In this document: piece after piece, positions 16,925-34,845 of the stretch
How positions within the stretch are numbered: position 1 is the first letter of the stretch
How the letters are laid out: each line of letters starts with the position of its first letter
Assembly (NCBI GenBank): GCA_017640725.1
Contig: JAEPQB010000005.1
Coordinates: 1-36,478 of the forward strand
DNA: 36,478 nt
Direction of reading: 5' to 3'
DNA from: Kordiimonadaceae bacterium
Lineage (GTDB): Bacteria; Pseudomonadota; Alphaproteobacteria; Sphingomonadales; Kordiimonadaceae
Translations under genes and position numbers: made by a program
The notes under the pieces: generated by a model
What the model was told of the DNA's origin: nothing
The model's database searches: none
The model's input: only the letters and a program-made list of their open reading frames with translations

Positions 16925-17001
16925 TGGTCGGAGTGAGTGGATTCGAACCACCGACCCCCTCGTCCCGAACGAGGTGCGCTACCAGGCTGCGCTACACTCC
17001 G
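16925..17001 (-). tRNA. tRNA-Pro (anticodon CGG)
   Basis: Complete cloverleaf on the minus strand, 77 nt including an encoded CCA. Acceptor CGGAGTG pairs with CACTCCG, the anticodon arm is CCTCG-TTCGGGA-CGAGG giving anticodon CGG, and the T arm carries GTTCGAATC. The 5' nucleotides overlap the stop codon of the alpha/beta hydrolase gene on the same strand. Confidence 0.96.
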
Positions 17002-18512: not shown

Positions 18513-19859
18513 GTGAAAGTAAACGGGAATTCGGAGGCTGTGTCGCTGATTTCAGCGATTGAAACTTGTTCTGCGCACGTTGGGGTGATTGGGCTAGGGT
18601 ATGTTGGTCTCCCTCTAGTGGAGCTTTTTTGTTGTCAAGGGTACAAAGTAACCGGTTTTGACATTGATCCCGTCAAAGTTGAAATGCTTCAGAATGGCGA
18701 AAGCTATATCCGACATTTTCGTTCAGAGGTTGTAAAAGAGCTTGTCGCAGTCCGGGGGTTTGAGCCGACTTGTGAGTTTGACAAGCTTTCTGAAGTTGAT
18801 GTGATTATCGTATGCGTGCCGACGCCCTTAACTCGCAATCGCGAACCTGACCTTACTGCCATCGTCGCAACAGCTGAAGCAGTTAAGAAGCGCCTTAGAT
18901 GTGGGCAATTGATTGTTCTGGAATCCAGCACATTTCCAGGGACAACGGATGAAATCGTAAAGCCAATCCTCGAAGCAAGTGGGTTAGTTGCTGGCAAGGA
19001 TTTCTTTCTCGCTTATTCGCCGGAAAGGGAAGATCCCGGTAATAAAACACACACAGCCAAGACCACCCCTAAAGTTGTGGGGGCAGATGGATCAGCAGCC
19101 TTACGGGCTGCGCAGGCGCTTTACAATAAGATCATTGACGGAACGGTAGTTGTTTCGAATAGTCGGACCGCCGAAGCTGTGAAGTTGACGGAGAATATTT
19201 TCCGATCCGTCAATATAGCGCTCGTAAACGAACTAAAAATTATCTTTGACAAGATGGGTATCGATGTTTGGGAAGTGATTGATGCCGCAGCGAGCAAGCC
19301 GTTTGGCTTTATGCCATTCTATCCTGGGCCAGGCTTGGGGGGGCATTGCATTCCGATCGATCCATTTTATCTGACATGGAAAGCTAGAGAATTTGAGGTG
19401 CCCACTCGTTTCATCGAGTTGGCCGGCGAGATCAATACTCACATGCCTTCATACGTTATGACAAAGTTGTCGGATGCGCTTAATGATCATTTTGAAAGAT
19501 CTGTAAAAGGTTCGCGCGTGTTGATCTTGGGTATCGCCTACAAAAGAGATGTTGATGACATGAGAGAGAGTCCGTCTTTAGTGTTGATTGAGCGACTGGA
19601 GGCTGCGGGAGCCAAGGTTGATTTCCATGATCCTTTTATTCCTATTGTACCTCATACAAGGGAGCACGATAATTTGAGTGGAAGACGATCAGTAGAATTG
19701 ACTGAAGATCTTCTGTCCACAACAGATGCTGTGTTGATTCTCACAGATCATACGCCGGTGGATTATCAACTCGTTTCCAAGTTTGCCCCGCTTATTGTAG
19801 ATACCCGGAACAAAGCCTATAGGGGTGATGACGCACGTGCTGTGATTGTTAAGGCATAG
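18513..19859 (+). CDS. wbpA: UDP-N-acetylhexosamine 6-dehydrogenase (WbpA type)
   Basis: A 448-aa member of the UDP-glucose/GDP-mannose dehydrogenase family that oxidises C6 of a UDP-sugar twice with NAD to a uronic acid. The Rossmann motif GLGYVG is at 27-32, SPEREDPGN at 169-177 is typical of the WbpA (UDP-GlcNAc) branch rather than UDP-glucose dehydrogenase, and Cys279 in GGHCIPIDPFYL is the thioester-forming cysteine. The start is a GTG at 18513 with GGGGA about six bases upstream; no in-frame ATG fits better. It opens a tightly packed operon whose next two genes carry out the following steps to a 2,3-diamino uronic acid. Confidence 0.9.
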   Translation: MKVNGNSEAVSLISAIETCSAHVGVIGLGYVGLPLVELFCCQGYKVTGFDIDPVKVEMLQNGESYIRHFRSEVVKELVAVRGFEPTCEFDKLSEVDVIIVCVPTPLTRNREPDLTAIVATAEAVKKRLRCGQLIVLESSTFPGTTDEIVKPILEASGLVAGKDFFLAYSPEREDPGNKTHTAKTTPKVVGADGSAALRAAQALYNKIIDGTVVVSNSRTAEAVKLTENIFRSVNIALVNELKIIFDKMGIDVWEVIDAAASKPFGFMPFYPGPGLGGHCIPIDPFYLTWKAREFEVPTRFIELAGEINTHMPSYVMTKLSDALNDHFERSVKGSRVLILGIAYKRDVDDMRESPSLVLIERLEAAGAKVDFHDPFIPIVPHTREHDNLSGRRSVELTEDLLSTTDAVLILTDHTPVDYQLVSKFAPLIVDTRNKAYRGDDARAVIVKA

Positions 19860-19871
19860 GGGCACGGTAGT

Positions 19872-21434
19872 ATGGAAAACAAGCAATTGTCAGGTGTTCG
19901 GGTTGTTGTGTGTGGGTGCGGCCATTGGGGTAAAAACCTTGTGCGGAATTTTGATGAACTGGGCGTTTTGGTGGGTGTGTCTGACCCAGATAGTGCGCTA
20001 GCTGATAAATTCTCAAAGCAGTACTCGGTTCCCGCTCTCACGTGGGAAGAATGCTTGGAGTCTGATGTATGCACGGCGGTCGTGATCGCCGCCCCCGCTG
20101 CTTTGCATGCGAAGCTGGGCGTTGAAGCTATGAGGGCCGGAAAGCATGTTTACATAGAAAAGCCGCTCGCACTCACTAGAGAAGATGGTAGTAAGCTTGT
20201 CGCGACTTCATTGGAAACTGATAAGCAGATGATGGTTGGGCATTTGTTGCAGTATCATCCTGTTTTTGTTGCGTTGTTGGCGATGACTAAAAGCGGTGAA
20301 CTTGGCCGCCTTCGCTACGTTTATTCCAATCGATTGAGCCTGGGTAAAATACGGCGTGAGGAGAACGTTTTATGGAGTTTCGCTCCACATGACATCTCCA
20401 TGATTTTAGCACTTGTGGGCGAGGAGCCTGGCGAGGTTCGCAGTACTTTCACAAATATTTTGCACGACAAAATTGCGGATACGGCGCAAGTGCAATTTAA
20501 GTTTCCCAGCGGCATAAGGGGGCATGTGTTTGCATCGTGGCTTCATCCGTACAAAGAGCAGAAACTTGTTGTCGTTGGTGACAAGGCAATGGCAGTGTTT
20601 GATGATCGAGCGGATTGGCCAGAAAAATTGGCTATTTACCGTCATGAGGTGTCTTGGGCAGGGCAGGTGCCTCATGTTGTCGCGGCTGACGCGGAATATG
20701 TGCAAGTGGATGTTGAAGAACCACTCAAGGCTGAGTGCCAGCATTTTGTTGATGTTGTTGCTAACAATTCACGTCCGAGAACTGACGGCCATGAGGCACT
20801 AAAAGTGTTGAATTTTATGCTTGCTGCCGACCCTATTCGATGCTCAGAGCAACACGTCGTGAGGTATCCAAACGTTCAAATTCATGAGAGTGCTTATGTA
20901 GATGATGATGTTGAAATTGGTGAAGGAACACGTGTTTGGCATTTCAGCCATTTATTGAGCAATGTGCAGATTGGCAAGAAATGCTCTATCGGCCAGAACG
21001 TTGTTATTGGGCCAAATGTTAGTGTTGGGGATCGTTGTAAAATACAGAATAATGTTAGTTTGTACGATGGCGTCACTCTGGGTGATGGTGTGTTTTGTGG
21101 GCCATCATGTGTTTTTACAAACGTCAACAATCCGCGGTCTGATATTGAACGGAAAGATGAGTTTTTAAAGACGAATGTTGGCAATGGCGCTAGCATTGGA
21201 GCGAATGCAACTATTGTTTGTGGAAACCAGTTAGGGGAGCATTGTTTTATAGCTGCTGGCGCAACCGTAACAAAAGACGTTCCTCCATTTGCTTTGATGG
21301 CCGGCGTTCCCGCAAGGCGTATCGGGTGGATGAGCCTTGCGGGCGGCCGATTGGGCGCTGATCTGGTTTGTCCTATAGATGGTACGAAGTATCGCGAAGT
21401 TGGGAAGGGTTTTATTGAGCCCGTTGGGGAGTGA
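19872..21434 (+). CDS. Fused 3-dehydrogenase / N-acetyltransferase (WbpB + WbpD)
   Basis: One 520-aa polypeptide with two activities usually on separate genes. Residues 1 to about 330 are a Gfo/Idh/MocA oxidoreductase: Rossmann GCGHWG at 15-20 and the EKP motif at 96-98, as in WbpB/WlbA, which oxidises C3 of UDP-GlcNAcA. Residues about 335-485 are a left-handed beta-helix of hexapeptide repeats ([49 protein letters not shown]), matching WbpD/WlbB, which acetylates the 3-amino group. The first and last enzyme of the oxidation, transamination and acetylation sequence are thus joined; the aminotransferase between them is the next gene. A short tail after residue 488 has a CPIDGTKY segment. It lies 12 bp after the dehydrogenase gene. 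Confidence 0.9.
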
Positions 21435-21441
21435 TGTATTT

Positions 21442-22572
21442 ATGAGCGCAAGCAGATCGATGCCATTTATAGATTTGGCGGCGCAACAGCGCCCAATTCG
21501 AGAAAAAATAGATGCTGCTATTTCGCGCGTCCTCGATCATGGTGTCTACATCATGGGACCTGAGGTGAGAGAGTTTGAACAACGGTTAGTTGAGTTTACG
21601 GGCGCGAAGTATGCGCTGAGCTGCGCGAATGGTACCGATGCTCTGGCTATTGTACTGATGGCATGGCAGGTTGGACCGGGGGATGCGGTGTTTGTTCCCT
21701 CATTCACGTATGTTGCCAGTGCCGAGGTTGCGGGCATGTTGGGGGCAACCACGTTTTTTGTGGACGTGCATCAAGATACCTTCAACATTGATGCAGAGAG
21801 CTTCGAACGTGCTATCCAGGACGCTAAGAAGAGTGGGTTAAGACCAGCGGTTGTTGTTCCTGTTGATCTGTTTGGGCAGCCTGCTGATACCCCCGCAATT
21901 GAAGCCGTCGCGCGGGAAAACGGTGTTAAAGTTTTAGTTGATGCAGCGCAAAGCTTTGGTGCGTCGCTCAAGGAGAAGTCTGTAGGTTGTTGGGGCGATG
22001 CTACAACAACTAGCTTCTTTCCCGCAAAGCCGTTGGGATGCTACGGAGACGGCGGCGCAATTTTTACTAATGATAGCGATCTAGCTAAACTCATGGACTC
22101 TATCCGGCTTCACGGAAAAGGCAAAGAAAAGTATGACAATGTGCGTGTGGGTATGAATTCACGACTGGACACATTGCAAGCTGCAATTCTACTTGAAAAG
22201 CTGGCGGTATTTCCCGGAGAAATTGTTGCCCGAAACAAGGTTGCTGATAGGTACACTACGGGACTTAGTGATCTGGTAGCGACACCTAGTTTGATTGCTG
22301 ACTGCTTGTCAGTCTGGGCGCAATATACATTGGTCGTCAACGAACGAGATCGCGTTCAGGAAGCGTGTAGGGGGCAGGGGGTGCCAACCATGGTATATTA
22401 TCCAATGGCGCTGTCGCAGCAAACCGGGTATGGGCATTTGCCCTCGGTGACGGGCGGAACGCCCGTATCGGATGATCTTTCAGGGAGAGTCCTGAGTCTT
22501 CCAATGCATCCTTACCTTCGAGAAGCAGATCAAGACTACATTATTGATGTGGTGCGTAAAGCACTATTCTAG
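21442..22572 (+). CDS. wbpE: DegT/DnrJ/EryC1/StrS sugar aminotransferase (WbpE type)
   Basis: A 376-aa PLP enzyme predicted to transfer an amino group from glutamate to the 3-keto group of the UDP-uronic acid made by the preceding dehydrogenases. MPFIDLAAQQ opens the fold, SCANGTDAL (60-68) and FVPSFTYVASAE (84-95) are the cofactor-phosphate and active-site loops, Asp167 in LVDAAQSFGA binds the pyridine nitrogen, and Lys196 in FFPAKPLGCYGDGGA forms the aldimine. I start at the ATG at 21442, with GGGGAG about ten bases upstream; the open frame extends back into the preceding gene. The spacing to the previous stop is 7 bp. Confidence 0.92.
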   Translation: MSASRSMPFIDLAAQQRPIREKIDAAISRVLDHGVYIMGPEVREFEQRLVEFTGAKYALSCANGTDALAIVLMAWQVGPGDAVFVPSFTYVASAEVAGMLGATTFFVDVHQDTFNIDAESFERAIQDAKKSGLRPAVVVPVDLFGQPADTPAIEAVARENGVKVLVDAAQSFGASLKEKSVGCWGDATTTSFFPAKPLGCYGDGGAIFTNDSDLAKLMDSIRLHGKGKEKYDNVRVGMNSRLDTLQAAILLEKLAVFPGEIVARNKVADRYTTGLSDLVATPSLIADCLSVWAQYTLVVNERDRVQEACRGQGVPTMVYYPMALSQQTGYGHLPSVTGGTPVSDDLSGRVLSLPMHPYLREADQDYIIDVVRKALF

Positions 22573-22574
22573 AG

Positions 22575-23636
22575 GTGCTTGGCCATTGCTTGAAAACACC
22601 TGGCGGAAAGAGAAATGTTTTGTACAGAGATAAAAAAATTGGCGTGGTAGTCCCAGCGTATAACGAAGAAACGCAGATCACAAAAGTGATCGAAACTATG
22701 CCGGAGATAGTAGACTTTATTGTTATTGCAAATGATTGCAGTACTGACCGTACATCACAGATCATCAGGGAACACAGGGAATTTGCGACGGGTCGAATTC
22801 AGTTAATTGAGCATACGATAAACCAAGGAGTGGGGGCCGCCATTGCGTCTGGATACAAATGGTGTCGGGACAATAACATTGATATAGCGACGGTAATGGC
22901 CGGAGACGCGCAGATGGATCCGAAGGATATGCCGTTGCTTTTGGACCCTGTTGTGGAGGGGAGTGCCGATTATTCAAAGGGCAACCGTTTGATCACACAA
23001 AACTCCTTCGATAAAATTCCCAAAGTCCGCTTTTTTGGAAACGCGATACTCTCTCTGCTTACGAAGATTGCATCTGGATATTGGCACGTTTCAGATTCTC
23101 AAACGGGCTATACCGCCATTAACGCAGCGGCGCTACACGCAATTGATTGGGATCGGATGTATAAGCGCTATGGTCAACCAAACGACCTGCTTGTTAAGTT
23201 GAATGTTGCGTCTATGAGGGTTGTTGATGTCCCCGTGGAGCCAGTTTACAACGTTGGCGAAAAGTCGGGTATTAAGGTGGGACGCGTTATTTTTACCATT
23301 GGGTCGCTACTTGTTAGATTGTTTTTCTGGCGGCTTCGCGAGAAATACGTATACCGCAATTTCCATCCTCTTGTTTTCTTCTACCTTTTCGGGTTTTTTG
23401 GCGCGAGCGTCTCAGTTGTTTTGTTCGTAAGGCTGGTTGTTCTTTGGATGGTTCAAGGTCACATTCCAGAGGTGACCTTCCTTGGCCTTATGTTTTCAGT
23501 TTCAATTAGCTTCAATTCGCTCGGTCTAGCAATGTGGTTCGACTACGAAGAAAACAAGCATTTGAATCCCCATGTCGATATCGCAAGGTTACGATCAGAA
23601 TTTGGGCTGAGGTCGAGCAAGTCGTCGCAGGAGTAG
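22575..23636 (+). CDS. Family 2 glycosyltransferase with C-terminal membrane anchor
   Basis: A GT-A-fold enzyme of the polyprenyl-phosphate glycosyltransferase (DPM/GtrB-like) type. VVVPAYNEE (24-32), NDCSTD (53-58) and the acidic GDAQMDP (110-116) make up the nucleotide-sugar and metal site; SQTGYTAI in the middle is the conserved acceptor-side segment. Two hydrophobic helices near residues 255-320 anchor it in the inner membrane. Such enzymes load a sugar onto undecaprenyl phosphate for use by GT-C transferases, and two GT-C-like proteins lie downstream. The start is uncertain: GTG 22575 begins 2 bp after the previous stop, while TTG 22620, with GGAAAGAG upstream, would give a more family-like N-terminus. 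Confidence 0.87.
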   Translation: MLGHCLKTPGGKRNVLYRDKKIGVVVPAYNEETQITKVIETMPEIVDFIVIANDCSTDRTSQIIREHREFATGRIQLIEHTINQGVGAAIASGYKWCRDNNIDIATVMAGDAQMDPKDMPLLLDPVVEGSADYSKGNRLITQNSFDKIPKVRFFGNAILSLLTKIASGYWHVSDSQTGYTAINAAALHAIDWDRMYKRYGQPNDLLVKLNVASMRVVDVPVEPVYNVGEKSGIKVGRVIFTIGSLLVRLFFWRLREKYVYRNFHPLVFFYLFGFFGASVSVVLFVRLVVLWMVQGHIPEVTFLGLMFSVSISFNSLGLAMWFDYEENKHLNPHVDIARLRSEFGLRSSKSSQE

Positions 23637-23640
23637 TGCT

Positions 23641-24984
23641 GTGAAGATTGCACGCCTGTTCACCGAAAAGCTGTCTCAGGATATCGCCTGGACGGTTGGT
23701 AGCTTCGTTATTCTCGCAACCAGCGGCATTTTGATAAACCTCCTTGTAGTGGGCTTCCGAGACACCGAGTCCCTCGGCGTCTTTAATCTCACCTATGCGG
23801 TTTACATCGTTATGTCGCAGTTTGCTGTCGTAGGGGTGCAGTTTTCGGTTCTGAGATATTCGGCGTTTTACGAAGCAAACGAACAGGAGCGTGCCGACCT
23901 GCTGCTCGCGGCGTCTTTGTTGGTCCTCGCGCTGGGAATGATAGCGGCCGTTGTAGTTTTTTTTGCGGCCGAGATGCTCGCTGAGCTTTTTGATAACGAA
24001 TTGGCTGGGCAAAGCATTGAGTTTGCTGCCATGGGCTTGGTGCTCTTTCCCTTAAACAAAATTCTTATTTCCTACTTGAATGGCTTGAGAGAAATGCGCG
24101 CCTTCGCAATTCTACAGGCGTCCCGCTATCTCCTGGTTCTCGCTTGTGTAGGTGTTATTGCGGTATCGAGTATGTCGTTTGCATACGCAGCAGTTTGCTT
24201 TGTGATTGCTGAGGCTGTAACCACGTTCGCGGCTGCTCTCTACATTTGGCGAAAGAAACTCGCGCGCAACGGACGATTAAAAGTACGCTGGGTCCACACT
24301 CATTTAGCATTTGGGCTAAAAAGCTTTTTGGCAGGTATGTTCGTCGAGATGAATTCGCGAGTAGATGTACTACTGCTGGGTATCTATTTGGAAGAATCTC
24401 TAGTGGGAGTTTATAGTTTCGCAGCTATGTTGGTAGACGGTGTTTATCATCTTATTGCAATGATCCGGATAAATTTCAATCCAATTCTAGTGGCAACTGT
24501 GCGAGACCGGCGTTGGGAGCAAGGGCGTTCTCTTCTTCAGACATGCAAAAGGTATGGGTTCTTGGGCGCAGGTTGTGCCGCGGCTTTCGTATTTTGCGGC
24601 TTTTACGTGTTAACAAGTGTGTTGTTGCCGGATCGGGCTTTAGCCCAGGGGGAAACAAGCTTGCTTCTCCTCTTACTCGGTCTCACATGCATTGCTCCGC
24701 TTATTCCATTTGAGAACCTGCTAATGGTGTCTGGCCACCCCGCCTACCAGACTCTGCAGCATCTTTTGGTTGTATTGGCCAACATATGTGTGAATACGCT
24801 TCTGGTACCAACGCTCGGAATCGAAGGCGCTGCTCTCGGTGCTGTCGCAGGTTACTTTGTAGGCATTGGAACGCTAATTTCGCTTAGTCCAAAGCTCGTG
24901 GGCTGGAATTTGTTGACAAACTACGTGTCGGACAATGCCACTGCTGAGGTCAGTGCTATGAAACAGCGGGATTCCGATTGGTAG
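23641..24984 (+). CDS. Wzx-type polysaccharide flippase (MOP superfamily)
   Basis: A 447-aa integral membrane protein with roughly twelve to fourteen hydrophobic segments, the size and profile of Wzx/MurJ-like lipid-linked oligosaccharide flippases. The opening (LSQDIAWTVGSFVILATSGI) and the LGVFNLTYAVY region match polysaccharide-export members. It would flip the undecaprenyl-linked repeat unit across the inner membrane. The GTG start at 23641 follows GGAG at eight bases and lies 4 bp after the glycosyltransferase gene. A hairpin immediately downstream suggests this is the end of the first transcription unit of the locus. Confidence 0.85.
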   Translation: MKIARLFTEKLSQDIAWTVGSFVILATSGILINLLVVGFRDTESLGVFNLTYAVYIVMSQFAVVGVQFSVLRYSAFYEANEQERADLLLAASLLVLALGMIAAVVVFFAAEMLAELFDNELAGQSIEFAAMGLVLFPLNKILISYLNGLREMRAFAILQASRYLLVLACVGVIAVSSMSFAYAAVCFVIAEAVTTFAAALYIWRKKLARNGRLKVRWVHTHLAFGLKSFLAGMFVEMNSRVDVLLLGIYLEESLVGVYSFAAMLVDGVYHLIAMIRINFNPILVATVRDRRWEQGRSLLQTCKRYGFLGAGCAAAFVFCGFYVLTSVLLPDRALAQGETSLLLLLLGLTCIAPLIPFENLLMVSGHPAYQTLQHLLVVLANICVNTLLVPTLGIEGAALGAVAGYFVGIGTLISLSPKLVGWNLLTNYVSDNATAEVSAMKQRDSDW

Positions 24985-24995
24985 TGTGAGAATGC

Positions 24996-25018
24996 CCCGC
25001 TCTTTTTTAGAGAGCGGG
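24996..25018 (+). terminator. Hairpin after the flippase gene
   Basis: CCCGCTCT (24996-25003) and AGAGCGGG (25011-25018) form perfect 8-bp arms around TTTTTAG, 12 bp after the stop codon. The downstream tail TGGTTTAGG is only weakly T-rich, so it may be a partial terminator or attenuator between two parts of the locus. Confidence 0.6.
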
Positions 25019-25112
25019 TGGTTTAGGTCGCTACTTTGCTGAACCACTTCCATTGTAATTTTGTTGAGAATAGGGTGCGCAAACCTGTGTGCGCTGGAAT
25101 AAGGAGGGAATG

Positions 25113-25877
25113 ATGCGAGATTTTACTCTGAATTCGTATGTGAAAATTCTAGACACTCTTGTTGGTGCAGGATTCTCGGTACATGGTGTCGCTAATTGGG
25201 TCGAGGGCAAGCACGAGAGTGGAGCGTGTATACGCCATGATGTTGATCGAAAGCCGAAAAACGCACTGGCGATGGCGAAAAAGGAGTTCGAACTTGGCAT
25301 TGCCTCAACCTATTACTTTCGAATTGTTCGCTCATCATTTTGTGCAAGAACTGTGGAGCAGATTGCTGAGCTGGGGCATGAAATAGGTTACCACTATGAA
25401 GACGTTTCCTTGGCGGGGGGAAATGTGAGCAATGCTGTCGAATTGTTTAAAGCGAACTTATCGCGATTGCGTTCAATTGCGCCTATCAAGACGGTTGTAA
25501 TGCATGGTCGGCCGCTGTCGAAACACAATAATATGGCTATTTGGGACCATATCTCACTTCAGGACGTTGACCTGATTGCCGACGCATTGATGTCAATTAA
25601 TTATGAGAGACTCCCATATTTTACTGATACAGGACGTCAGTGGGGGGCTCTGGCAACCAACTTGAGAGATCGGCCTGAAACTGGCGCTTTCGATATGTCT
25701 TCAAGTATCTCCACTACGGACGATCTTTGTCAGTTCATTCAGGCTGGATCTTGCCGAGCGATTTCACTCGCAGTGCACCCGGAACGCTGGAGTAATGATC
25801 GTATCGATTGGACAGGTCAACTGATAAAAGATACAGGTGCGAATTTGATAAAGCGTGGCTTGCATTTCATTCGATAG
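25113..25877 (+). CDS. Polysaccharide-deacetylase-like protein (254 aa)
   Basis: Resembles the carbohydrate esterase 4 (NodB-like) fold: IRHDVDRKP at 40-48 resembles the metal-binding D-D motif, GHEIGYHYED at 88-97 stands for the H-x-x-x-H metal motif, and VVMHGRPLSKHNN (128-140) holds a further His. Such proteins remove acetyl groups from sugars or act as glycan-binding pseudo-enzymes; the motif spacing is not the classical one, so activity is uncertain. There is no signal peptide, so it may act on cytoplasmic precursors. AAGGAGG precedes two adjacent ATGs; the second (25113) has the better spacing of about five bases. Confidence 0.8.
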   Translation: MRDFTLNSYVKILDTLVGAGFSVHGVANWVEGKHESGACIRHDVDRKPKNALAMAKKEFELGIASTYYFRIVRSSFCARTVEQIAELGHEIGYHYEDVSLAGGNVSNAVELFKANLSRLRSIAPIKTVVMHGRPLSKHNNMAIWDHISLQDVDLIADALMSINYERLPYFTDTGRQWGALATNLRDRPETGAFDMSSSISTTDDLCQFIQAGSCRAISLAVHPERWSNDRIDWTGQLIKDTGANLIKRGLHFIR

Positions 25878-25944
25878 GTATTTGGTAAGGGCTTTGAGCA
25901 CCAATTATGTGCCTAAGCAATTAGTGTAGGAGCTATTAAATCGG

Positions 25945-28395
25945 GTGATTGGCAGTTTTTTTTCTTGGGGGTTGCTTTTTCTGTCATTTGGGTTGGCGAC
26001 TGTGCTGGGTGTGGTCGCCTCCCGAGGGTTGCCATGGACGAAAGAAGCGCAAGTTGCAGGCATACCGTCAGCATTCGGAATCGCATTAGGCCCGTTTGTA
26101 TTCAGCTTTGGCGCGCTCATAGCGATTTTGCTTCCTGATAGCCTGTCAGACTGGAACAGAGTCGCGCTCATCTCAGCAGTGTACGGATCAATGCTATTGA
26201 TTGTACTGGGGCAGCTGCACATTTCAGCAAAACCTCGCTGGAGGACGCAAAGGACTAACTGTCGTGCTTCTCATTTAGGTGCGGCGGCATTACTTGCTTT
26301 TTGTTGTGGTGCCCTAATTTTGTGCGCTGTATTGCTTCCGATTACGCAGAACGATGCCTTAGAGTACGCGACCGTTGGGCGAATTCTATATAATACTCAG
26401 TCTTTGGCCAGCTACCCGCCGATAAACCCTTCTGAAACGGATAGCGGCTTTTTTGGCCCTTGGACGCATCCGCCCCTTTATGTTCTTTCGATTTACTATA
26501 CTTTTTTGCTGCAAGCCGGTTCGCATCACTTGGATTTTATGACGCTGATTGCCCCCTGGTTTGCGATCTGTGGCGTAAAGCTTGTCTTCGCTATTGGTTT
26601 ACTGGAGAGCAGAAAAATTGCCTACATTTCTGCTGCTGTTTTTGCGTCCACTCCTCTTTTCTTTTTGGGAGCGGCGGGTGGGTTGATTGATGCGTTGCCC
26701 ATTCTTGGCTTGGCATTGTTGCTGGCCTCAATCATCGGAATTGACGCACGTGAACCGAAAAGAGCTATAATTTCTGGCGCCGCTTTGGGGTTGGCGTTGT
26801 GGACGCACTCGCAAGCGGTCCTCTTCGTTGGATTGTATGTTGCTGTTGTGTTTTCTTATTGGGGTTGCACTCGTATTGTCCAGGCCACCAAAGAAAGCTT
26901 GGTTGCTGTAGCCGTCGCTTTGATACTCGCCGGGTGGCCCTACCTGAACAATGTCATAACGTTCGGTAGCGTGATTAGTGATAGTCCCGCAGTTTTGAAT
27001 CTCGATCACCTTGACTGGGCTGGCTATTTCGCATCAGGAAGAGGCCTAAACATAATGGCCGCCAAAATCCAGTATGGTGTTTTGAAGGGATGGTTTGCGT
27101 ACGAAGCCTACGGGCTGACGTTCTGGTTCGCGGGCTTCGGGACCTTAGTTCTTGTGTGGGGTAGTAGAAAGAAGCTCTGCACAATTGTATGTGATGGGAT
27201 CTATCATGCAAGGGTCAGCACTTTACATGCGGTTTGTACCGTTATCTTTAGCTGCTATCTGGCTGGGACGATTTTATCAATCTGCCTTGGGTACGACCAT
27301 GTAATAAAGAATGAGCGCTATCTTCTTGGAGTTCTGGCGCCGGTTTCTTTGCTCGCAGGTCTAGGGGGAGCGAAAGTCGTGTCAGGGCTGGAAACGGCCG
27401 CTAGCCGTCTAAACGATCTACGCCTCATTTGTTTTCGTGGGGGCTGGGTTAGGAAAACTCCACTTGTAACACTTTATGTGGCGGTAATTCTTCAGATAAG
27501 TACCCTTTCCGTTTTCTCCTTTCGAACGGAGCGTATCCCACTTTCAGAATCACTTGGTTCTTCGTCGGAGCTTCGTATGCGGAGCGCTTCCTTTCGTGCA
27601 ATGAAGTTTCTTCAAGAAAATGCCAAAGGGGAAGAAAAAGTTCTTACATTAAAGCCAGCCGATATGTTCTTTGCAGAAAGAAAAATGATCAGCTACTTGG
27701 ACACGCGCCTCATCCCTTTTTACAACACTTCTGTGGCGGCTGAGGGGTACGAACTGCTGAAGGGTTTGGATGTGAATTTCATTCACTTGCCTGACTATGG
27801 AATTCCTGTGTTCTACAATAGTGTCCTAATGGAGATTGTTGGAAACCCTCAGTATGCTGATCTTGCATTCTCAGAAGATGGTTATCAAATTTACCGTTTG
27901 AAAAAGGAATCCAATCCTGTCGACGAAATACCTGTGCTTATCGGGAGTGACACTTGGCAAAGTGAGCGTATGTTGGTGATCGGAGGGCGGAAAGCATTGG
28001 AAACTCTTGTTATGAGCACACGCGATTACGTCATCGGTAATCTTTCCTTGGCAAGGAGCGTGCTTGGCCTGTTTCATCGGGATTTTTCTACTAGTCTGGC
28101 AAGCCCAGAGTTTTACTTGGAGCCAAATTCCGAGTATCGAGCGATAGTCAACCTGAGCGGTGAGGGGTTTGTTCGAGTATGGCTATCGTCGAGCGAGATG
28201 CACTGTCAGGAAACTTGTGATGGCGGGAAGGTGAATGAGTTGCTGGGTGAGTTCGTACTTCAACATAACAGGCAGCGGAATTTTGTTAGAAGGTTTATTG
28301 TTGGCGAAGTTGAGCGGAAAGCGAGCCTGAGGGTTGAGCACGTTGGAAATTCGGACGTTACCCTTTATGGGATCGATTTGCATGAACTCCGGTGA
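25945..28395 (+). CDS. Large GT-C-like membrane protein fused to an extracytoplasmic domain (816 aa)
   Basis: The N-terminal 520 residues or so are strongly hydrophobic (ten or more helices) with the layout of a GT-C glycosyltransferase: an acidic motif NDALEY (136-141) after the second or third helix, then THPPLY (174-179) in the first large outer loop. The remaining 290 residues or so are mostly polar and should lie outside the membrane. Residues about 563-656 closely resemble the separate minus-strand protein at 28544-30307 (for example VFYNSVLMEIVGNPQYADL versus TLYNSYFGQLIADPEYTDQ). So this gene looks like a one-piece form of a system that is split on the other strand. It could transfer a sugar from a polyprenyl donor or act as a Wzy-like polymerase. 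GTG start at 25945; TAGGAG lies about 12 bases upstream. Confidence 0.8.
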   Translation: MIGSFFSWGLLFLSFGLATVLGVVASRGLPWTKEAQVAGIPSAFGIALGPFVFSFGALIAILLPDSLSDWNRVALISAVYGSMLLIVLGQLHISAKPRWRTQRTNCRASHLGAAALLAFCCGALILCAVLLPITQNDALEYATVGRILYNTQSLASYPPINPSETDSGFFGPWTHPPLYVLSIYYTFLLQAGSHHLDFMTLIAPWFAICGVKLVFAIGLLESRKIAYISAAVFASTPLFFLGAAGGLIDALPILGLALLLASIIGIDAREPKRAIISGAALGLALWTHSQAVLFVGLYVAVVFSYWGCTRIVQATKESLVAVAVALILAGWPYLNNVITFGSVISDSPAVLNLDHLDWAGYFASGRGLNIMAAKIQYGVLKGWFAYEAYGLTFWFAGFGTLVLVWGSRKKLCTIVCDGIYHARVSTLHAVCTVIFSCYLAGTILSICLGYDHVIKNERYLLGVLAPVSLLAGLGGAKVVSGLETAASRLNDLRLICFRGGWVRKTPLVTLYVAVILQISTLSVFSFRTERIPLSESLGSSSELRMRSASFRAMKFLQENAKGEEKVLTLKPADMFFAERKMISYLDTRLIPFYNTSVAAEGYELLKGLDVNFIHLPDYGIPVFYNSVLMEIVGNPQYADLAFSEDGYQIYRLKKESNPVDEIPVLIGSDTWQSERMLVIGGRKALETLVMSTRDYVIGNLSLARSVLGLFHRDFSTSLASPEFYLEPNSEYRAIVNLSGEGFVRVWLSSSEMHCQETCDGGKVNELLGEFVLQHNRQRNFVRRFIVGEVERKASLRVEHVGNSDVTLYGIDLHELR

Positions 28396-28543
28396 TCTAC
28401 CCTGAAGTAGCAATATAGTTTCGCTAACAATCGCATTGAGTTTTTTACGTATACAGACAATTATCCTGACAGCGGACCAGACGAAAGACGAGAGTAGAAC
28501 TTTGCCAAAGAGGATTGCCCTCATTTTCAAAATGAAGAGCCTC

Positions 28544-30307
28544 CTATTGTTGTGCTGGGGGTGCCTGAATTAGTTTGTGCAGGCTGAGCTCTTTGATTTC
28601 CAACAACAACCCGTCTTCCAAAGCATCGCAACTTGATGGGAGTGATAGTGCAGCCATCAAGGAGATGTCGGTCGCATTCGCTGGTAATCGAGCCAGAGAA
28701 GAACGGGAAGATGTGTCGTCGGTGAGAAGAAACGAGCTTAGAAAGCGAATATTTCGTTCTCCGTCCGCGTTGATCCAATTCGCATAAATACTGACACGTC
28801 CTGTCCCTGAAGCATTCATATGGAGCAAGTATTGTGCTTGGTCGCCAAACAGAAAATCGGCCACCCTATTGCTGAGATTATCGGAAGGAGCGGCGGCGAT
28901 CGAAAGCGAGGTATGATACAACCAGAACAAATATTCCAATATATGCGCATACTGTGACTGGTCGAAGATCTCGTTGCTGGAAAAGAGTATTGTGTGAGCA
29001 CCGTCACCAGTTGTATTGCACATTTCTTGGCGGTCCATGCTAGTAACCGCAATGCCTGGAGAAGATGTTGGAGGCGCTTTAAAAAGGGTGAATGATAACG
29101 TCGACGGCCGCAGTGTCGGATAGTAAGTTCCAGAGATAAAACGACGCATTGGTACTTCAGGCATCTCTCGTAAATCCCATGTCAGCTCCCGCCTGTTCGT
29201 GTTTGGGGTGGTGGGGCGAGATGGCGGTGCTGGAGGGAATTGATTGAGAACATCGCTAATGCCGATTCCAAAGGGGTTCTGAACAACCGGATATGGCTTG
29301 GAAAAAATGCATGCCTGAACACTCTCTATGGAAAAATCTCCATCGACTCCGTTTGCGTAAAATGTAAGCTCGGCTGAGCGCGTCTCAGGTGAAATCAGAC
29401 TTTGAAAAAAGAGCTGGTGAGAGCGAGATCGCTTGGTGCTATTCCAGTTGGAGGAGACCGACAAGCGTGAGTCTAGCCAGTCCAACTGAGTAAGCTCTGC
29501 ACGTAGCTGAGTCGTGCCGTTAACCTGAGCTTCAATGAACAAGCCGCGGCTGGTCAGGCTGTCCTCTAGTAGAGTGTCGTCAGGAAGCGACAGTCTGAGC
29601 GTCATTTTCACTTCGGCATCATCGAGAATCGTCTGCTGGTACTGACGAGGTAGCGGTCCTCTTCGTAAAGGCTTGTCAACAAGCGATGTAGTAGAGACCA
29701 AGTAAACGCTGTCCATTGTTGGGGATTGCGCAGTCGCTAGTGCCGGTAGATGGAGAGGTACGCATTCGACGTCTCGCTTGGCGGGAACAAGTCTAAAAAT
29801 TTTGTACCCATGCGATGAAAGATATACCTGATCGGTGTATTCAGGGTCAGCAATAAGCTGACCGAAGTAAGAATTATAGAGAGTAACAGGCATGTAGTTA
29901 GGGGTGGCAATGTAGGGTATATTCCTTTCCGCCATCACCGTCGAAATTTCCGTCAGTGTACGTAGTTTGTAAAGTTCTTCCATCTCGGGGGCAAAATGTT
30001 GCTGCCATGGACTGAGTGCGTAGAAACCGTAGTCGGACTGACGAAAGGTGAGGGTGCGTTTTTCGTCTGGAGCACCATCTACATAATTCATAAAGAAAGC
30101 AGCATTGCCAACCGGGAAGTTGGGGTGTTGTAACGCTTGGAATTCGTCTACGGCCGCGCCTAAGGGCTTATAGCTGTAACGTAACATTTGTATGCCGCTT
30201 TCAGCAAAGCTCATCGAAACTAAGATTAAAGAAATAAGCAAAAAGACGAGCTTTGCCACGGTGTTTCTCTTTCGGACCTTGACCTTGTTAGCGCTGAAAT
30301 TTTGCAT
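28544..30307 (-). CDS. Membrane-anchored extracytoplasmic protein, partner of the adjacent GT-C-like protein (587 aa)
   Basis: An N-terminal hydrophobic segment (about 16-36, KLVFLLISLILVSMSF) is followed by a long polar part, so it is either secreted or anchored with the bulk outside. Residues about 81-173 resemble residues about 563-656 of the 816-aa protein on the other strand, including SSHGYKIFRL versus SEDGYQIYRL. The rest (about 200-587) is unrecognised and beta-rich in appearance, with a Pro-rich linker near PPAPPSRPTTP. I start at the ATG at 30307, which has GAGG at seven bases; a longer start at 30334 is possible. It overlaps the 3' end of the GT-C-like gene by 20 bp, so the two are translationally coupled and probably act as one unit. 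Confidence 0.75.
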   Translation of the reverse strand: MQNFSANKVKVRKRNTVAKLVFLLISLILVSMSFAESGIQMLRYSYKPLGAAVDEFQALQHPNFPVGNAAFFMNYVDGAPDEKRTLTFRQSDYGFYALSPWQQHFAPEMEELYKLRTLTEISTVMAERNIPYIATPNYMPVTLYNSYFGQLIADPEYTDQVYLSSHGYKIFRLVPAKRDVECVPLHLPALATAQSPTMDSVYLVSTTSLVDKPLRRGPLPRQYQQTILDDAEVKMTLRLSLPDDTLLEDSLTSRGLFIEAQVNGTTQLRAELTQLDWLDSRLSVSSNWNSTKRSRSHQLFFQSLISPETRSAELTFYANGVDGDFSIESVQACIFSKPYPVVQNPFGIGISDVLNQFPPAPPSRPTTPNTNRRELTWDLREMPEVPMRRFISGTYYPTLRPSTLSFTLFKAPPTSSPGIAVTSMDRQEMCNTTGDGAHTILFSSNEIFDQSQYAHILEYLFWLYHTSLSIAAAPSDNLSNRVADFLFGDQAQYLLHMNASGTGRVSIYANWINADGERNIRFLSSFLLTDDTSSRSSLARLPANATDISLMAALSLPSSCDALEDGLLLEIKELSLHKLIQAPPAQQ

Positions 30308-31703
30308 AAAGCGCCTCAAGAAAAATTCCGCCAAAGAAAGCGTACAGTGGCAATATGGTGAGATTGTACCGTTGGTTTTTTATCATAAGCAAAATGCCAA
30401 GGGACGCTGTGGCGATAGTCAGAATGTGATAGCCGACAAGCGTAAAAAAAAATGTTGCGTGTAGAGGATTTTGCTCCCTAAGTGGAAGCTTTCTGTATTT
30501 CGCGAACATCAGTACCATTCCAGCCATGCCTAGCCAAAAAGCAAAACCATGATACTGAACATAGCTGAAGCCTCCTAGCAAACCATTGAATATTAGGTTT
30601 GCTGGAGTCTCGAGTGCTCGGTCCACGCTCAGCGTAAAGTTGTAATCGAAAGCTGGATTGTCCAAAAGTGGCTCGTGATCGCTAATGGGTTTTCCAAACG
30701 TCAGGAAGTTCCGAATATATTGTCCACCACCGACAAGTGTCGAAAAGACGCAAATTTGAAGTGATGATGTGATCTTTTGTCGATAAGGCCCTTCGGCGAG
30801 AGCAAAGAACGCTCCCAAGACAAAAGGGAGTGCAAGCACGCCTGTCGAGTGGGAAAAAATGCTGGCACTCACCATTAAGCTCAGTAAAACTTTGCTGCCA
30901 AGTCCTGGGTTTTTCACGATTGTTGGTAAGAAGCTAAGGGCAGCCAAGAAGAGAAATACACGTTGGGCGTCCGTGTGTGCTCCCGCTACGTGAGAAACGT
31001 ACAAAGGTGCACCAATTAGGCAGAGAATCGAGAACATTCTTGCGCGTGGTGCGTGGGACGACAGCGTGAACCAGAGCAATGCAATTGTAAGTATAAAGTA
31101 GAACGCTGCGATAACCCGGGCAGGTAGGGTTGATTCATCGCCAGCATACAGCATCCCCCAAACGAGCATCATATTATAGCCGGGCGGATGGGTAATGTTG
31201 GCGTAAAGACCGAATAGAGTAGATTGGTTTACGGGGTATACTTCCATCGTTTTGTTGGCGTAGATGTGTTTCGCAACCAGAAAGTATTCTTGCGAGTCAT
31301 TCATCCACATTGGAAACGAAAAAACTTGAAACAGAACGAGTGCTGCTGAGAGCCCTGCTAGTAAAAAGAGTATAACATTGACGCCGTCAAAAGATTTTTT
31401 GCGTTTGCGCCACGCTAGATTAATGGCCCGCATCGTTGCTGGATTGCGTGTCGCGATTTCGACTCCGACTGTCCCTGCAACAGTTAGTGATATTGCCATA
31501 AGATAAAATCTATCTGATTGGAAAGGCAGGACCTGGAATAGCCACCACAGCATGATTGCTATAAGGGCGGGCGCCATACCCATGGCGCAAACAACGGCAA
31601 TAGCGAGGTGGTCTTTATTGTTGTACTTGAGGCGGCCGGCACACATGGCTGCGCCAATGGGGGCCACAACAAAGGTTACGATCAATCCGACGATGGTTAT
31701 CAA
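30288..31703 (-). CDS. GT-C-like multi-pass membrane protein (471 aa)
   Basis: About eleven hydrophobic segments and GT-C-like features: NDSQEY (135-140) after the third or fourth helix and THPPGYN (171-177) in the following loop. These match NDALEY and THPPLY of the 816-aa plus-strand protein, as do YIRNFLTFGKPISD versus YLNNVITFGSVISD and MIKNQRYNLTILPL versus VIKNERYLLGVLAP. The two are therefore paralogues, but this one ends after the membrane part and the outer domain is a separate overlapping gene. The start is a TTG at 31703 with AGGGG about ten bases upstream; no better codon is available. Likely role: transfer of a sugar from a polyprenyl donor at the outer face, or polymerisation. 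Confidence 0.8.
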   Translation of the reverse strand: MITIVGLIVTFVVAPIGAAMCAGRLKYNNKDHLAIAVVCAMGMAPALIAIMLWWLFQVLPFQSDRFYLMAISLTVAGTVGVEIATRNPATMRAINLAWRKRKKSFDGVNVILFLLAGLSAALVLFQVFSFPMWMNDSQEYFLVAKHIYANKTMEVYPVNQSTLFGLYANITHPPGYNMMLVWGMLYAGDESTLPARVIAAFYFILTIALLWFTLSSHAPRARMFSILCLIGAPLYVSHVAGAHTDAQRVFLFLAALSFLPTIVKNPGLGSKVLLSLMVSASIFSHSTGVLALPFVLGAFFALAEGPYRQKITSSLQICVFSTLVGGGQYIRNFLTFGKPISDHEPLLDNPAFDYNFTLSVDRALETPANLIFNGLLGGFSYVQYHGFAFWLGMAGMVLMFAKYRKLPLREQNPLHATFFFTLVGYHILTIATASLGILLMIKNQRYNLTILPLYAFFGGIFLEALYAKFQR

Positions 31704-32049
31704 CTTTAGATACCCCTTTTGTGGTGACCCTGCGGGATGTGACGAGATGGGAAATAAGTAGATTTCAAACCGCCACGGAATACGTTGGCGGCGATTCGCT
31801 GATCTTGTGCGATTGAAACCTACATCAAGATCGTAGGTTGAGAGAGGCGTAAAATACTAGAGGGGCCCTTCGGTCGAGTTTAGGGAATGGTCGTGCCAAA
31901 ACGATCCATCAAAAAGGAGAATTTAGCTTGGAACTTGCCACCGGTTTTGAGTATCCTGCCTTCTAGCGGAGTTCTTCCGGTGTGTTAACAGGGTGAGCAA
32001 CGCATGCAAACGGGTGCGTATAGCCCAAAGAATAGGCTACTTAGAAAGC
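31704..32049. promoter_or_regulatory. Divergent intergenic region rich in inverted repeats
   Basis: This 346-bp gap separates the minus-strand GT-C-like gene from the plus-strand amidotransferase and should hold both promoters. CCGCCA (31770-31775) pairs with TGGCGG (31786-31791) and the stem can extend inwards around GAATA. Next come two overlapping inverted repeats at 31801-31839 (separate entry). From 31840 to 32049 I see only weak purine-rich stretches, one of which (AAAAAGGAGA near 31911-31920) is too far from the chosen start to serve it. Confidence 0.45.
31801..31839. repeat. Two interlocked inverted repeats
   Basis: GATCTTG (31801-31807) matches CAAGATC (31826-31832), and AACCTAC (31817-31823) matches GTAGGTT (31833-31839). 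All arms are perfect 7-mers, in the order A, B, A', B'. With no nucleotide between A' and B', the two stems could hardly form together as an H-type pseudoknot, so as RNA they would be alternative structures; as DNA they would be overlapping operators. Confidence 0.6.
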
Positions 32050-34023
32050 ATGTGCGGAATATTTGGTGTTGTGGTTCTAGGTCAGTCAAAGCTTCCCCGG
32101 AAGCGCTGGGTCAATACCATTGAGCAGGTTTTTGCGCTTTCGGAGACGCGAGGTAAGGAAGCCGCAGGGTTGGCGGTTGCGACGCAATCCAAGATCAGTG
32201 TTTATAAGGATTCGATTGCTGCAACTCAGATGCTGAATACGCTTGAGTATACGGCATTTGTAGACAAGGCAGTCGGTGCCTTTTTTGACGATAATGCCCC
32301 AGGTAGTTCGCTGGCATCGATCGGGCACTCGAGGCTTGTAACAAATGGTTTGCAAGGCATTGATGCGAACAACCAACCCGTTCGCCATGGAGGAACGGTC
32401 CTGGTTCACAATGGAATCGTTGTGAACAATGAGGATTTGTGGCTGGGGAAGCCGGCCTTGAAGCGTAGTTCTGATGTCGATACTGAGATTGTGGCGGCAT
32501 TGTTGGATAGCTACCGTGGCCAAGGAATGTCAGTTGTTGAAGCAACTTCCCAGATATTCAATGAGGTTGTCGGCGAGTGTTCGGTTGCAGCTGTTTTTGA
32601 AGACCTGAACTTGCTCCTCATGGCGACGAATACCGGCTCGTTGTACGTTGCGCTGGATGCAAATGGCACTGAGTTTTATTTTGTTTCAGAGCGGTACATT
32701 TGCCAGGAGATAATTGATGCGCAGTATAGCGGGAATGATCGGAACCGGTTCGAAATTCGACAGGTGAAGGCGGGGAGCGGAATGATCTTGGATCTTTCGA
32801 CGCTTTCGGTGACTGAATTTACCTTTAACTCGGCCGTAGCTACTGGCTCAAGCTTGGCTAAACCTAGCGTTGCGCCCCTTCTCGGTGTGCAACGGCAAAT
32901 CGAGGATAAGGCGGAGCACATCATTAGAGCCCGTGAAAAAATGGTCCGTTGTTCGAAGTGTTTGTTGCCCGAAACGATGCCGTTTATTGCTTTCGATGAG
33001 CAGGGTGTGTGTAATTATTGTCATAGCTATGTTCCAATGGTTCGCCAGGATCGTAGCGTGCTGGAAGGGCATCTTTCGCGGTATAGAAAAACTGACGGAG
33101 CGCCGGACTGTTTGGTGGCATTTTCCGGAGGGCGCGATAGCTCTTATGGGTTGCATTTGTTGCGCACTGAATTTGATATGCACCCTGTGGCATATACATA
33201 TGATTGGGGGATGGTTACGGATCTCGGTCGGAGGAATCAGGCGCGGCTCTGTGGGAAACTTGGAATTGAGCACATTTGGGTTTCCGCGGACATCAAGAGG
33301 AAGCGGGAGTACGTCCGAAAGAATATTTCAGCTTGGATGAAAAAACCTGATTTGGGAATGGTGCCGCTGTTTATTGCGGGCGACAAGCATACTTTCGCCG
33401 AGGGAAACAAAGTGATGGAGCAGTGCGGTGTCGATTTGATCGTGTACTGTCCCAACAAGCTGGAGAAGACTGACTTTAAGACAGGTTTTTGTGGAGTGAA
33501 GCCTGACGCAAGTGAGGGGCAGCCGTTCGCTCTGGGGGCGTTGAAGAAGTATCAGTTAGCGCTCTACTATGGTAGCCAGTTTCTCCGTAATCCCCATTAT
33601 ATCAATAAGTCTATGATGGATACCTTCGCTGGTTTTTATTCACTTTACTATCAGGCAAAAGACTACACCTATCTATATGATTATGTGGATTGGGAAGAAA
33701 GTGTTGTTGATAGGACAATAATTGACGAATACGGCTGGGAATTGGCTGCTGATACCAAATGTGCGTGGCGTATTGGCGACGGAACCGCGCCATTTTACAA
33801 TTATGTTTATTACACTATAGCTGGCTTCACTGAGCACGATACCTTTAGGAGTAATCAGATACGCGAGGGGCAGCTAACGAGAAGTGAAGGTATGAAGTTA
33901 GTTAATGAAGAGAACCAGCCTAGATGGGATAGTTTTCGGGAGTACACGCGAATGATCAATCTGGATTTTGATGAGCTGGTCCGTACGATTGACAGGATGC
34001 CCAAGTTGTACATGCATTCGTGA
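32050..34023 (+). CDS. Fused class II glutaminase / PP-loop N-acetyl-sugar amidotransferase (WbpG-like)
   Basis: A 657-aa two-domain enzyme. Residues 1 to about 240 are a class II (Ntn) glutaminase: Cys2 in MCGIFGV must become the N-terminal nucleophile, GHSRLVTNG (92-100) and HNG (120-122) bind glutamine. Residues about 298-657 match the WbpG/WbuX N-acetyl-sugar amidotransferase family: paired cysteines C301/C304 and C321/C324 in RCSKCLLPET...VCNYC and the ATP pyrophosphatase loop SGGRDSS (359-365). WbpG normally takes ammonia from separate HisH/HisF-like partners and turns an acetamido group into an acetamidino group; here the ammonia source is built in. The catalytic Cys decides the start at 32050, although the frame is open back to 31993 and the Shine-Dalgarno is weak. 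Confidence 0.85.
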   Translation: MCGIFGVVVLGQSKLPRKRWVNTIEQVFALSETRGKEAAGLAVATQSKISVYKDSIAATQMLNTLEYTAFVDKAVGAFFDDNAPGSSLASIGHSRLVTNGLQGIDANNQPVRHGGTVLVHNGIVVNNEDLWLGKPALKRSSDVDTEIVAALLDSYRGQGMSVVEATSQIFNEVVGECSVAAVFEDLNLLLMATNTGSLYVALDANGTEFYFVSERYICQEIIDAQYSGNDRNRFEIRQVKAGSGMILDLSTLSVTEFTFNSAVATGSSLAKPSVAPLLGVQRQIEDKAEHIIRAREKMVRCSKCLLPETMPFIAFDEQGVCNYCHSYVPMVRQDRSVLEGHLSRYRKTDGAPDCLVAFSGGRDSSYGLHLLRTEFDMHPVAYTYDWGMVTDLGRRNQARLCGKLGIEHIWVSADIKRKREYVRKNISAWMKKPDLGMVPLFIAGDKHTFAEGNKVMEQCGVDLIVYCPNKLEKTDFKTGFCGVKPDASEGQPFALGALKKYQLALYYGSQFLRNPHYINKSMMDTFAGFYSLYYQAKDYTYLYDYVDWEESVVDRTIIDEYGWELAADTKCAWRIGDGTAPFYNYVYYTIAGFTEHDTFRSNQIREGQLTRSEGMKLVNEENQPRWDSFREYTRMINLDFDELVRTIDRMPKLYMHS

Positions 34024-34071
34024 CGTCAAGAGGCGTCAATAATAACGCTGGTACGGAGAATTTTGTTTGTG

Positions 34072-34845
34072 ATGAAATACAAATCTATTGCCAAAACGGC
34101 ACTTAGAAAGATGGGATTGGCAATATATCGTATTCCAACAGAACGTCAGAGCGTTTCTTCTGGTTACAATTATGCCGTCAGTTACCCGAATGCTACTCTA
34201 GCCCCTTGGTTGGGGGATCGAGTATTTATGCAAACGTATGAGAGAGTGAAGCATAACACGCTCGTAGATATCTATAGGATGTATGAGCTTTGGGAGTTAG
34301 CTGGGCAAGCGCTACAAGCCGGCGGAGATATAGTTGAGGTTGGTGTTTGGCGGGGGGGGACAGGGTGTTTAATGGCGAAGCGTGCTGAGACGATGAATGC
34401 GTCTTCACGCGTTTTCTTATGTGATACCTTTTCTGGTGTGGTAAAGGCGGGTGCCGAAGATTCTAGTTATAAGGGTGGCGAGCACAGTGATACGGGCGTC
34501 ACGGTTCTTCGTAAGTTGGAAGCTGATCTTTCTCTCGACAATACGGAAGTTCTTGTAGGGGTTTTTCCGGATGCCACTGGCAACCTTCTTGCGACTAAGA
34601 ATATTTGCCTATGCCACATCGATGTCGATGTGTATCAGTCTGCGAAAGATGCGGTTGAGTTTGTTTGGGACCGGATACCTGCAGGTGGAGTGATCGTATT
34701 TGATGATTACGGCTTTGCTGGATGCGAGGGTGTGACCCGCTACGTTGATGAGCTTCGTACGCGTGATGACGTGTTTTTCTTTAATAATTTGAACGGCCAC
34801 GCCGTTATTCTGAAGCAGGGAGTTTTGCATGGCGACGTTTGCTAA
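34072..34845 (+). CDS. TylF/MycF-family O-methyltransferase
   Basis: A class I SAM-dependent methyltransferase of the TylF (macrocin O-methyltransferase) family, which methylates sugar hydroxyls using a metal ion. EVGVWRGG (89-96) is the SAM-binding loop, CDTF at 117-120 binds the ribose, and HIDVDVY (182-188) with DDYG (211-214) provide the metal and catalytic acids. In this locus it probably methylates a sugar of the glycan. The start is uncertain: ATG 34072, GTG 34069 and TTG 34063 all lie downstream of GGAGAA at 34055-34060. It follows the amidotransferase by about 50 bp and overlaps the next methyltransferase gene by 17 bp. Confidence 0.88.
   Translation: MKYKSIAKTALRKMGLAIYRIPTERQSVSSGYNYAVSYPNATLAPWLGDRVFMQTYERVKHNTLVDIYRMYELWELAGQALQAGGDIVEVGVWRGGTGCLMAKRAETMNASSRVFLCDTFSGVVKAGAEDSSYKGGEHSDTGVTVLRKLEADLSLDNTEVLVGVFPDATGNLLATKNICLCHIDVDVYQSAKDAVEFVWDRIPAGGVIVFDDYGFAGCEGVTRYVDELRTRDDVFFFNNLNGHAVILKQGVLHGDVC

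Follow-up and report, generated by a model that had tools for sequence, protein, structure and literature searches.

One-piece and split forms of a putative GT-C glycosyltransferase encoded tail to tail in a bacterial polysaccharide locus

A polysaccharide locus of a Kordiimonadaceae bacterium, within a stretch of 36,478 nucleotides (contig JAEPQB010000005.1, positions 1 to 36,478; hereafter the window), carries two versions of a same putative glycosyltransferase (GT) of the GT-C type. One version, P0001, is a single chain and the other is cut into two proteins, P0003 and P0002, encoded on the opposite strand. As judged from sequence comparison, the fused and split proteins are old paralogues. 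Taken as a whole, we find it rather probable that these two GT-C paralogues decorate a surface glycan and that the split one assembles from a catalytic and an acceptor-recognising subunit. The genes concerned are as follows.

25945..28395, plus strand: P0001, one-piece (fused) GT-C enzyme, 816 residues (open reading frame (ORF); structure model)
30288..31703, minus strand: P0003, membrane subunit of the split form, 471 residues, homologous to P0001 until the loop preceding the last helix (BLASTP, hhalign, hidden Markov model (HMM))
28544..30307, minus strand: P0002, outer subunit of the split form, 587 residues from ATG 30307, 596 from TTG 30334 (BLASTP, hhalign, HMM)
30305..30317, minus strand: GAGG, 6-nucleotide (nt) spacer and ATG of P0002, within the 3' end of P0003 (sequence)

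The P0001 gene and the P0003/P0002 genes are convergent, with 148 base pairs (bp) in between, and the three ORFs lie where a preliminary description of the window had placed them. Since GAGG sits 6 nt upstream, ATG 30307 is the likely start of P0002, in preference to TTG 30334. With this start, the two genes of the split form overlap by 20 bp, the value given in that description. As their reading frames overlap, translation of P0003 and P0002 is probably coupled. A scan of both intergenic stretches for promoters and terminators found nothing.

The homology of the two small proteins to the two parts of P0001, first proposed from short shared motifs, is established by comparison. In BLASTP, P0001 matches P0003 with 80.1 bits (E 5e-20, 26% over 379 columns) and P0002 with 44.3 bits (E 1e-8, 24% over 109 columns). 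Among 200 shuffled controls each, the membrane part, shuffled in 10-residue blocks, scored at most 25.4 bits and the outer part at most 24.6 bits. Profile-profile alignment of 21 one-piece rows with two split rows, the check that the preliminary description had called for, is significant for the membrane parts (hhalign, probability 99.96, E 3.5e-39) as well as for the outer parts (probability 98.8, E 6.6e-17). HMMs built from the 21 one-piece rows alone also detect both halves in the window, with 161.0 bits (membrane) and 52.7 bits (outer).

The structure model of P0001, obtained with a 23-row alignment (predicted local distance difference test (pLDDT) 87.5, predicted template modelling score (pTM) 0.89), contains long helices until residue 491, a loop of low model confidence at 494-498, a last long helix at 500-528, an alpha/beta domain and a beta-sandwich at 660-816 resembling a carbohydrate-binding module (CBM).

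25945..27528, plus strand: membrane part of P0001, residues 1-528, carrying N136-D137..E140-Y141, H175-P-P, H288 and R458-Y459 (alignment, model)
27562..27915, plus strand: alpha/beta outer domain of P0001, residues about 540-657, within the ArnT-aligned stretch 106-657 (model, superposition)
27922..28392, plus strand: C-terminal CBM-like beta-sandwich of P0001, residues 660-816

With its GT-C core, alpha/beta outer domain and CBM-like domain, the fused protein can be overlaid on ArnT and AglB along most of the chain. The ArnT-like core starts near residue 106 and three model helices lie N-terminal of it. The membrane core and the outer domain that follows are superposable on both proteins, as for a GT-C fold of class A, which bears out the GT-C-like membrane part initially assigned to the 816-residue protein. 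Within this part, D137, Y141, H175, H288, R458 and Y459 are identical in all 23 rows of the fused alignment. They are also present in both split membrane subunits, that of the window and that of a second split pair found in a Bdellovibrionia metagenome-assembled genome (locus L028). E140 is conserved in 22 rows; the remaining row, the fused copy of L028, deviates twice, with E140 to Q and P177 to L. For ORF12 of Citrobacter youngae, the GT136 enzyme, the residues discussed are D31, Y35, H106, H174, R349 and Y350 (PMC11127046). Matched to these by motif order, and not by alignment, the residues D, Y, H, H, R and Y of the present family follow one another in the same order with an equal D-to-Y spacing.

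The position of the cut is defined by alignment of the split proteins with the P0001 model: P0003 ends at the loop 494-498, and the sole membrane helix of P0002 aligns with the helix 500-528.

30179..30268, minus strand: single membrane helix of P0002, residues 23-52 of 596, aligned to the P0001 helix 500-528 (model, alignment)
29780..30067, minus strand: alpha/beta domain of P0002, residues about 90-185, homologue of the P0001 alpha/beta domain (BLASTP, hhalign, HMM, model)
29294..29767, minus strand: beta-sandwich of P0002, residues about 190-347
28670..28963, minus strand: second stretch of P0002 matching the CBM-like part of the fused family, residues about 458-555 (sequence, E 6e-7; the model is poor here)

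P0002 had been described as an anchored outer protein, which calls for correction: by alignment, its helix is the counterpart of the final membrane helix of the one-piece enzyme, the cut falling in the preceding loop. The L028 split pair (495 and 526 residues) is cut at the same place. The ATG that starts its outer gene falls 14 bp within the preceding gene and has GGGGAG 6 nt before it. Frames that overlap where relatives are fused are what a frameshift, an assembly error or a decaying gene would produce. Nevertheless, we hold such an origin of the split to be very improbable. Indeed, two diverged pairs in different genomes (their membrane subunits are 26% identical) share one cut site, each with a Shine-Dalgarno-like sequence and an ATG as proper start, which makes a sequencing error unlikely.

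The phylogeny also argues against a broken gene. In a tree of 24 membrane parts, from which the second copy of locus L024 was excluded, a clade (100/99) unites the 21 one-piece rows to the exclusion of the fused copy of L028, and P0003 groups with the 495-residue protein of L028 (95/86), on long branches flagged by the tree software. A sister grouping of P0001 and P0003 is rejected (approximately unbiased test, p-AU 0.00076), which rules out a recent break or duplication of P0001 as the source of the split pair and agrees with the earlier view of the fused and split forms as diverged versions. Two other groupings, that of P0003 with the 21 one-piece rows and that of the two L028 copies as sisters, are both compatible (p-AU 0.33 each).

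A survey for fused and split forms was carried out by a scan of genome contigs with the P0001/P0003 alignment; the scan requires an exact match to two short peptide patterns, and hence undercounts. It yielded 21 loci (L008-L028), and fused proteins occur in all of them. Twenty loci (L008-L027) have one-piece proteins of 797-990 residues, L024 having two. L028 has a one-piece protein of 744 residues and the opposing split pair. As L028 was picked up through its split gene, the presence of the opposing fused gene is an independent observation. In the phylum of L028, a search with the split profile matched 5 of 290 genomes, including that of L028 itself. Among them, L042 (7610-12284, plus strand) carries two one-piece family genes in tandem (772 and 787 residues, 8-bp overlap) and L043 carries one; L041 and L044 are the other two. 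Three candidates for further split halves were discarded. The 434-residue ORF of L041 runs off its contig, and the ORF of L044 is truncated and nearly identical (99.7%) to the L028 fused gene. The 459-residue membrane-only ORF of Rhizobium sp. Root1203 (L040, 7740-9119, minus strand) abuts a transposase-like ORF at its end, and an outer-domain ORF of this strain lies on another contig (L060, 141-1145, plus strand), so that the gene may have been disrupted. Closer to the window, the family was absent from the 18 other genomes of the genus searched (19 with its own, query A2). Samples of the order (296 genomes searched with P0001), the class (385, with P0003) and the phylum (398, with A2) gave the window's own genome only. 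Plain protein queries against viral contigs and plasmids found nothing, and the 15 pattern matches of a two-row alignment in viral contigs included no relative.

Two further proteins were seen during the survey. In L028, a 649-residue polytopic protein (10691-12640, minus strand) is encoded between the split pair and the fused gene, the latter of which it overlaps; it is perhaps a third GT-C, with weak outer-domain similarity to P0001 (E 0.017). In L047, a 193-residue ORF with one hydrophobic segment (3276-3857, minus strand) coincides in part with a stretch that the outer-domain profile hits through its CBM-like part (E 1.7e-16); this stretch contains one stop.

The company of fused and split copies bears on another view, in which the split pair would join the fused enzyme in one heteromeric complex and have a non-catalytic or regulatory part in it. 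EmbA-EmbB and Pmt1-Pmt2 are paralogues that form such complexes. Both split pairs stand opposite a fused paralogue, and two family members are also found in L024 and, as fused tandem genes, in L042. However, the split copies of the window and of L028 retain the catalytic-type residues, and the copy that deviates in L028 is the fused one. We regard such a non-catalytic or regulatory role as improbable.

The family is hardly reached by sequence profiles of known families. In Pfam, PMT_2 (PF13231) is the sole family matched at E <= 0.01, by 2 of the 23 members. Against its cut-off of 26.1 bits, fragments of P0003 score 27.2 and 26.2 bits and a fragment of P0001 22.3 bits, the full-length proteins being unmatched. 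A PMT_2 search of the window's own genome was negative, although the fragments come close to the threshold. None of the NCBIfam models is reached; those that come closest, LIC_10190 (E 0.0011) and LA_3751 (E 0.0084), bear Leptospira-type names and stay far under cut-off. Profiles gave no credible match to PDB sequences, and that of the 21 fused membrane parts reached no ArnT chain at E <= 10. ArnT transfers aminoarabinose from undecaprenyl phosphate onto lipid A. In addition to the lack of a profile match, the present family differs from ArnT (PDB 5ezm, 5f15) by its three N-terminal model helices, its CBM-like domain and its split version. The outer domain of the oligosaccharyltransferases STT3, PglB and AglB carries a WWDYG-type motif; no member of the family matches an STT3 profile in Pfam at E <= 0.01 (0 of 23), and NCBIfam archaeo_STT3 gives E 7.9 and 9.6 only. 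Nor is there a sequence-profile match to the mycobacterial arabinosyltransferases AftD and EmbA/B/C, which are known as single chains.

The preliminary description knew of no named build of this kind, a statement that finds no support, at least for the fused form. Besides the ArnT/AglB superposition and the P0003 fragments that reach the PMT_2 cut-off, one-piece GT-C enzymes with CBMs are already known, and P0001 resembles the described GT136, AftD and EmbC (PMC11127046). GT136 acts in a three-component addition of pentofuranose: like the fused family, it is a GT-C enzyme with a CBM, and it is served by a polyprenyl-phosphate sugar maker and a MATE-family flippase. Its donor maker is of the phosphoribosyl type and not a GT2, and ORF12 is described as one protein (PMC11127046). 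Multi-component transmembrane glycosylation systems similarly combine a membrane-linked C55-P-sugar maker, a flippase and a GT-C; those in the available part of the review concern Gram-positive wall polymers and no second protein is named there (PMC8035078). Among the literature matches listed, no split GT-C enzyme with a separate last helix and outer domains was recognised from title and start of abstract. It is the split form that is unusual here.

The genes around the two forms are consistent with a system of this type.

22575..23636, plus strand: GT2 resembling dolichol-phosphate-mannose synthase and ArnC, proposed maker of the lipid-linked sugar donor (profile and PDB matches)
23641..24984, plus strand: flippase of the MOP type (Polysacc_synt), which would carry the lipid-linked sugar (Pfam)
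31993..34023, plus strand: glutamine amidotransferase domain and WbuX/WbpG-type N-acetyl sugar amidotransferase in a single chain (library scans)
18513..22572, plus strand: three sugar-nucleotide genes, namely a nucleotide-sugar dehydrogenase, an oxidoreductase with a hexapeptide acyltransferase, and a DegT aminotransferase (library scans)

Among PDB sequences, the GT2 matches dolichol-phosphate mannose synthase best (E 9.5e-10), ArnC ranking lower (E 9e-4). Its best NCBIfam matches, AglJ and PpgS, are both far under cut-offs. The flippase scores 46.4 bits against the Polysacc_synt cut-off of 28.2. By sequence, a polyprenyl-phosphate sugar synthase and a flippase are thus both encoded nearby, as in three-component systems. 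The three sugar-nucleotide genes probably serve to make a UDP-2,3-diacetamido-uronic acid, a pathway that we presume. The amidotransferase joins in one chain functions that a Sphingomonas gene table gives as separate WbuX-, HisF- and HisH-type genes (PMC11340318).

When the window proteins were compared by tblastn with the 21 related loci, some of them short (L015, 4.9 kb), the GT2 was the most alike neighbour, with relatives in 14 loci (61-74% in 13, 28% in one). Relatives were also found for the amidotransferase (18 loci), the flippase and the DegT aminotransferase (16 each), the oxidoreductase/acyltransferase (10) and the nucleotide-sugar dehydrogenase (6); counting weak ones, PglE-type relatives occur in 16. 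A scan of 72 of 194 chosen neighbour ORFs gave three Wzy_C matches. In a separate scan of 10 proteins, two of these, in L011 and L016, were over cut-off and extra flippases were seen in L014 and L018; 5 of the 10 proteins matched nothing. Upstream on the L008 contig lies a 468-residue, 10-segment relative of the L011 Wzy_C protein. Other contigs of the window's genome hold two PglC-type matches and two Wzy_C matches over cut-off.

These neighbours weigh on a further alternative, in which the GT-C enzymes are oligosaccharyltransferases or polymerases that transfer a whole polyprenyl-diphosphate oligosaccharide, begun by a PglC-like enzyme, either onto protein or onto a chain being extended. PglC-type relatives, weak ones included, occur in 17 of the 21 loci and would suit a diphosphate-linked oligosaccharide donor equally well. 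On the other side, PMT_2 is the only Pfam match, archaeo_STT3 stays at E 7.9 or worse, and the most conserved neighbour, the GT2, resembles polyprenyl-monophosphate sugar synthases. In L011 and L016, Wzy_C proteins are encoded separately, a relative of the former being present in the L008 contig, so that the polymerase role raised in the preliminary description becomes less likely. Altogether the neighbours speak more for decoration with a sugar donated from a lipid phosphate than for a polymerase, and we hold the alternative as a whole, including its oligosaccharyltransferase version, to be unlikely but worth retaining.

Other features of the locus and its surroundings were recorded. The polysaccharide locus (18513-35617) has a G+C content of about 0.48, compared with 0.544 in positions 1-18000 of the window; because of this lower value and of the absence of the GT-C family from the 18 other genomes of the genus, it is probably an acquired island. 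A 658-residue protein (163-2139, minus strand), 16 kb from the cluster, has no Pfam or NCBIfam match at E <= 0.01 and has relatives (28-32%) in 6 of the 21 loci. On another contig of the window's genome (G000:C12:8382-14090), a PglC-type transferase shares a stretch of 6 kb with a Wzy_C match that stays under cut-off, possibly the rest of the cluster. In L010 (10246-12489, plus strand), a 747-residue protein fuses a polytopic protein of unknown family to a PglC-type sugar transferase.

In the preferred reading, the locus would encode two old paralogues of one outward-facing GT-C family. P0001 would be the whole enzyme, its active site in the membrane core, followed by the alpha/beta outer and CBM-like domains. 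P0003 would be the catalytic subunit, keeping the catalytic-type residues, and P0002 the acceptor-recognising subunit, supplying the last helix, the alpha/beta domain and one or more beta-sandwiches of sugar-binding type. The two halves are predicted to form a complex acting as one unit, and thereby one enzyme. An (amidated) diamino-uronic sugar would be loaded by the GT2 onto polyprenyl phosphate, turned outward by the flippase and transferred by the two GT-C enzymes onto a surface glycan at different positions. The GT2 and flippase suggest a multi-component system adding a lipid-phosphate-linked sugar to a surface glycan, and the presence of one GT2 and one flippase beside two GT-C enzymes suggests one donor for two linkages. 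Of all this, comparison supports the homology, the P0001 fold, the place of the cut, the gene starts, the conserved residues and the neighbourhood of genes; the complex, the coupling, the donor, the acceptor and the sharing of tasks are inferred.

Several observations weigh against this reading. Split loci number two only (window and L028), none being seen in L008-L027. The structure model of P0002 is poor (pLDDT 58.5, pTM 0.51), and tblastn with P0002 at E <= 1e-8 matched none of the 21 related loci, its relatives showing up only in profile comparisons or as weaker BLASTP hits (E 2.4e-6 at best). In the 526-residue outer protein of L028, a hydropathy scan called no membrane helix, which is placed there by alignment only, and the rest of this protein and of P0002 have no detectable homology to each other. 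With both alternative groupings at p-AU 0.33, a single origin of the split is not proven. The 17-kb locus of L028 has, by tblastn, no relative of the window GT2, flippase or amidotransferase; further along the contig are a weak GT2 match with two hydrophobic segments (33% over 82 residues to the window GT2) and an unassigned protein with 8 segments. The PglC-type relatives mentioned above also count here.

The bolder proposal is that of a natural two-subunit GT-C enzyme with coupled translation and obligate assembly, which would occur in two bacterial groups distant from each other and might be complexed with its fused paralogue. It is put forward tentatively, as somewhat less than an even prospect. 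Whether some small GT-C enzymes require a second, acceptor-binding protein is posed as an open question in a review, and P0003 with P0002 is a candidate for such an arrangement (PMC8035078). Having no name in Pfam or NCBIfam and showing a recurring gene neighbourhood, the family deserves attention for a CAZy-type classification. Finally, a split enzyme beside its fused cousin offers a direct natural test of that question of acceptor recognition, since the catalytic and recognition halves can be expressed or removed separately, with no engineered cut required.

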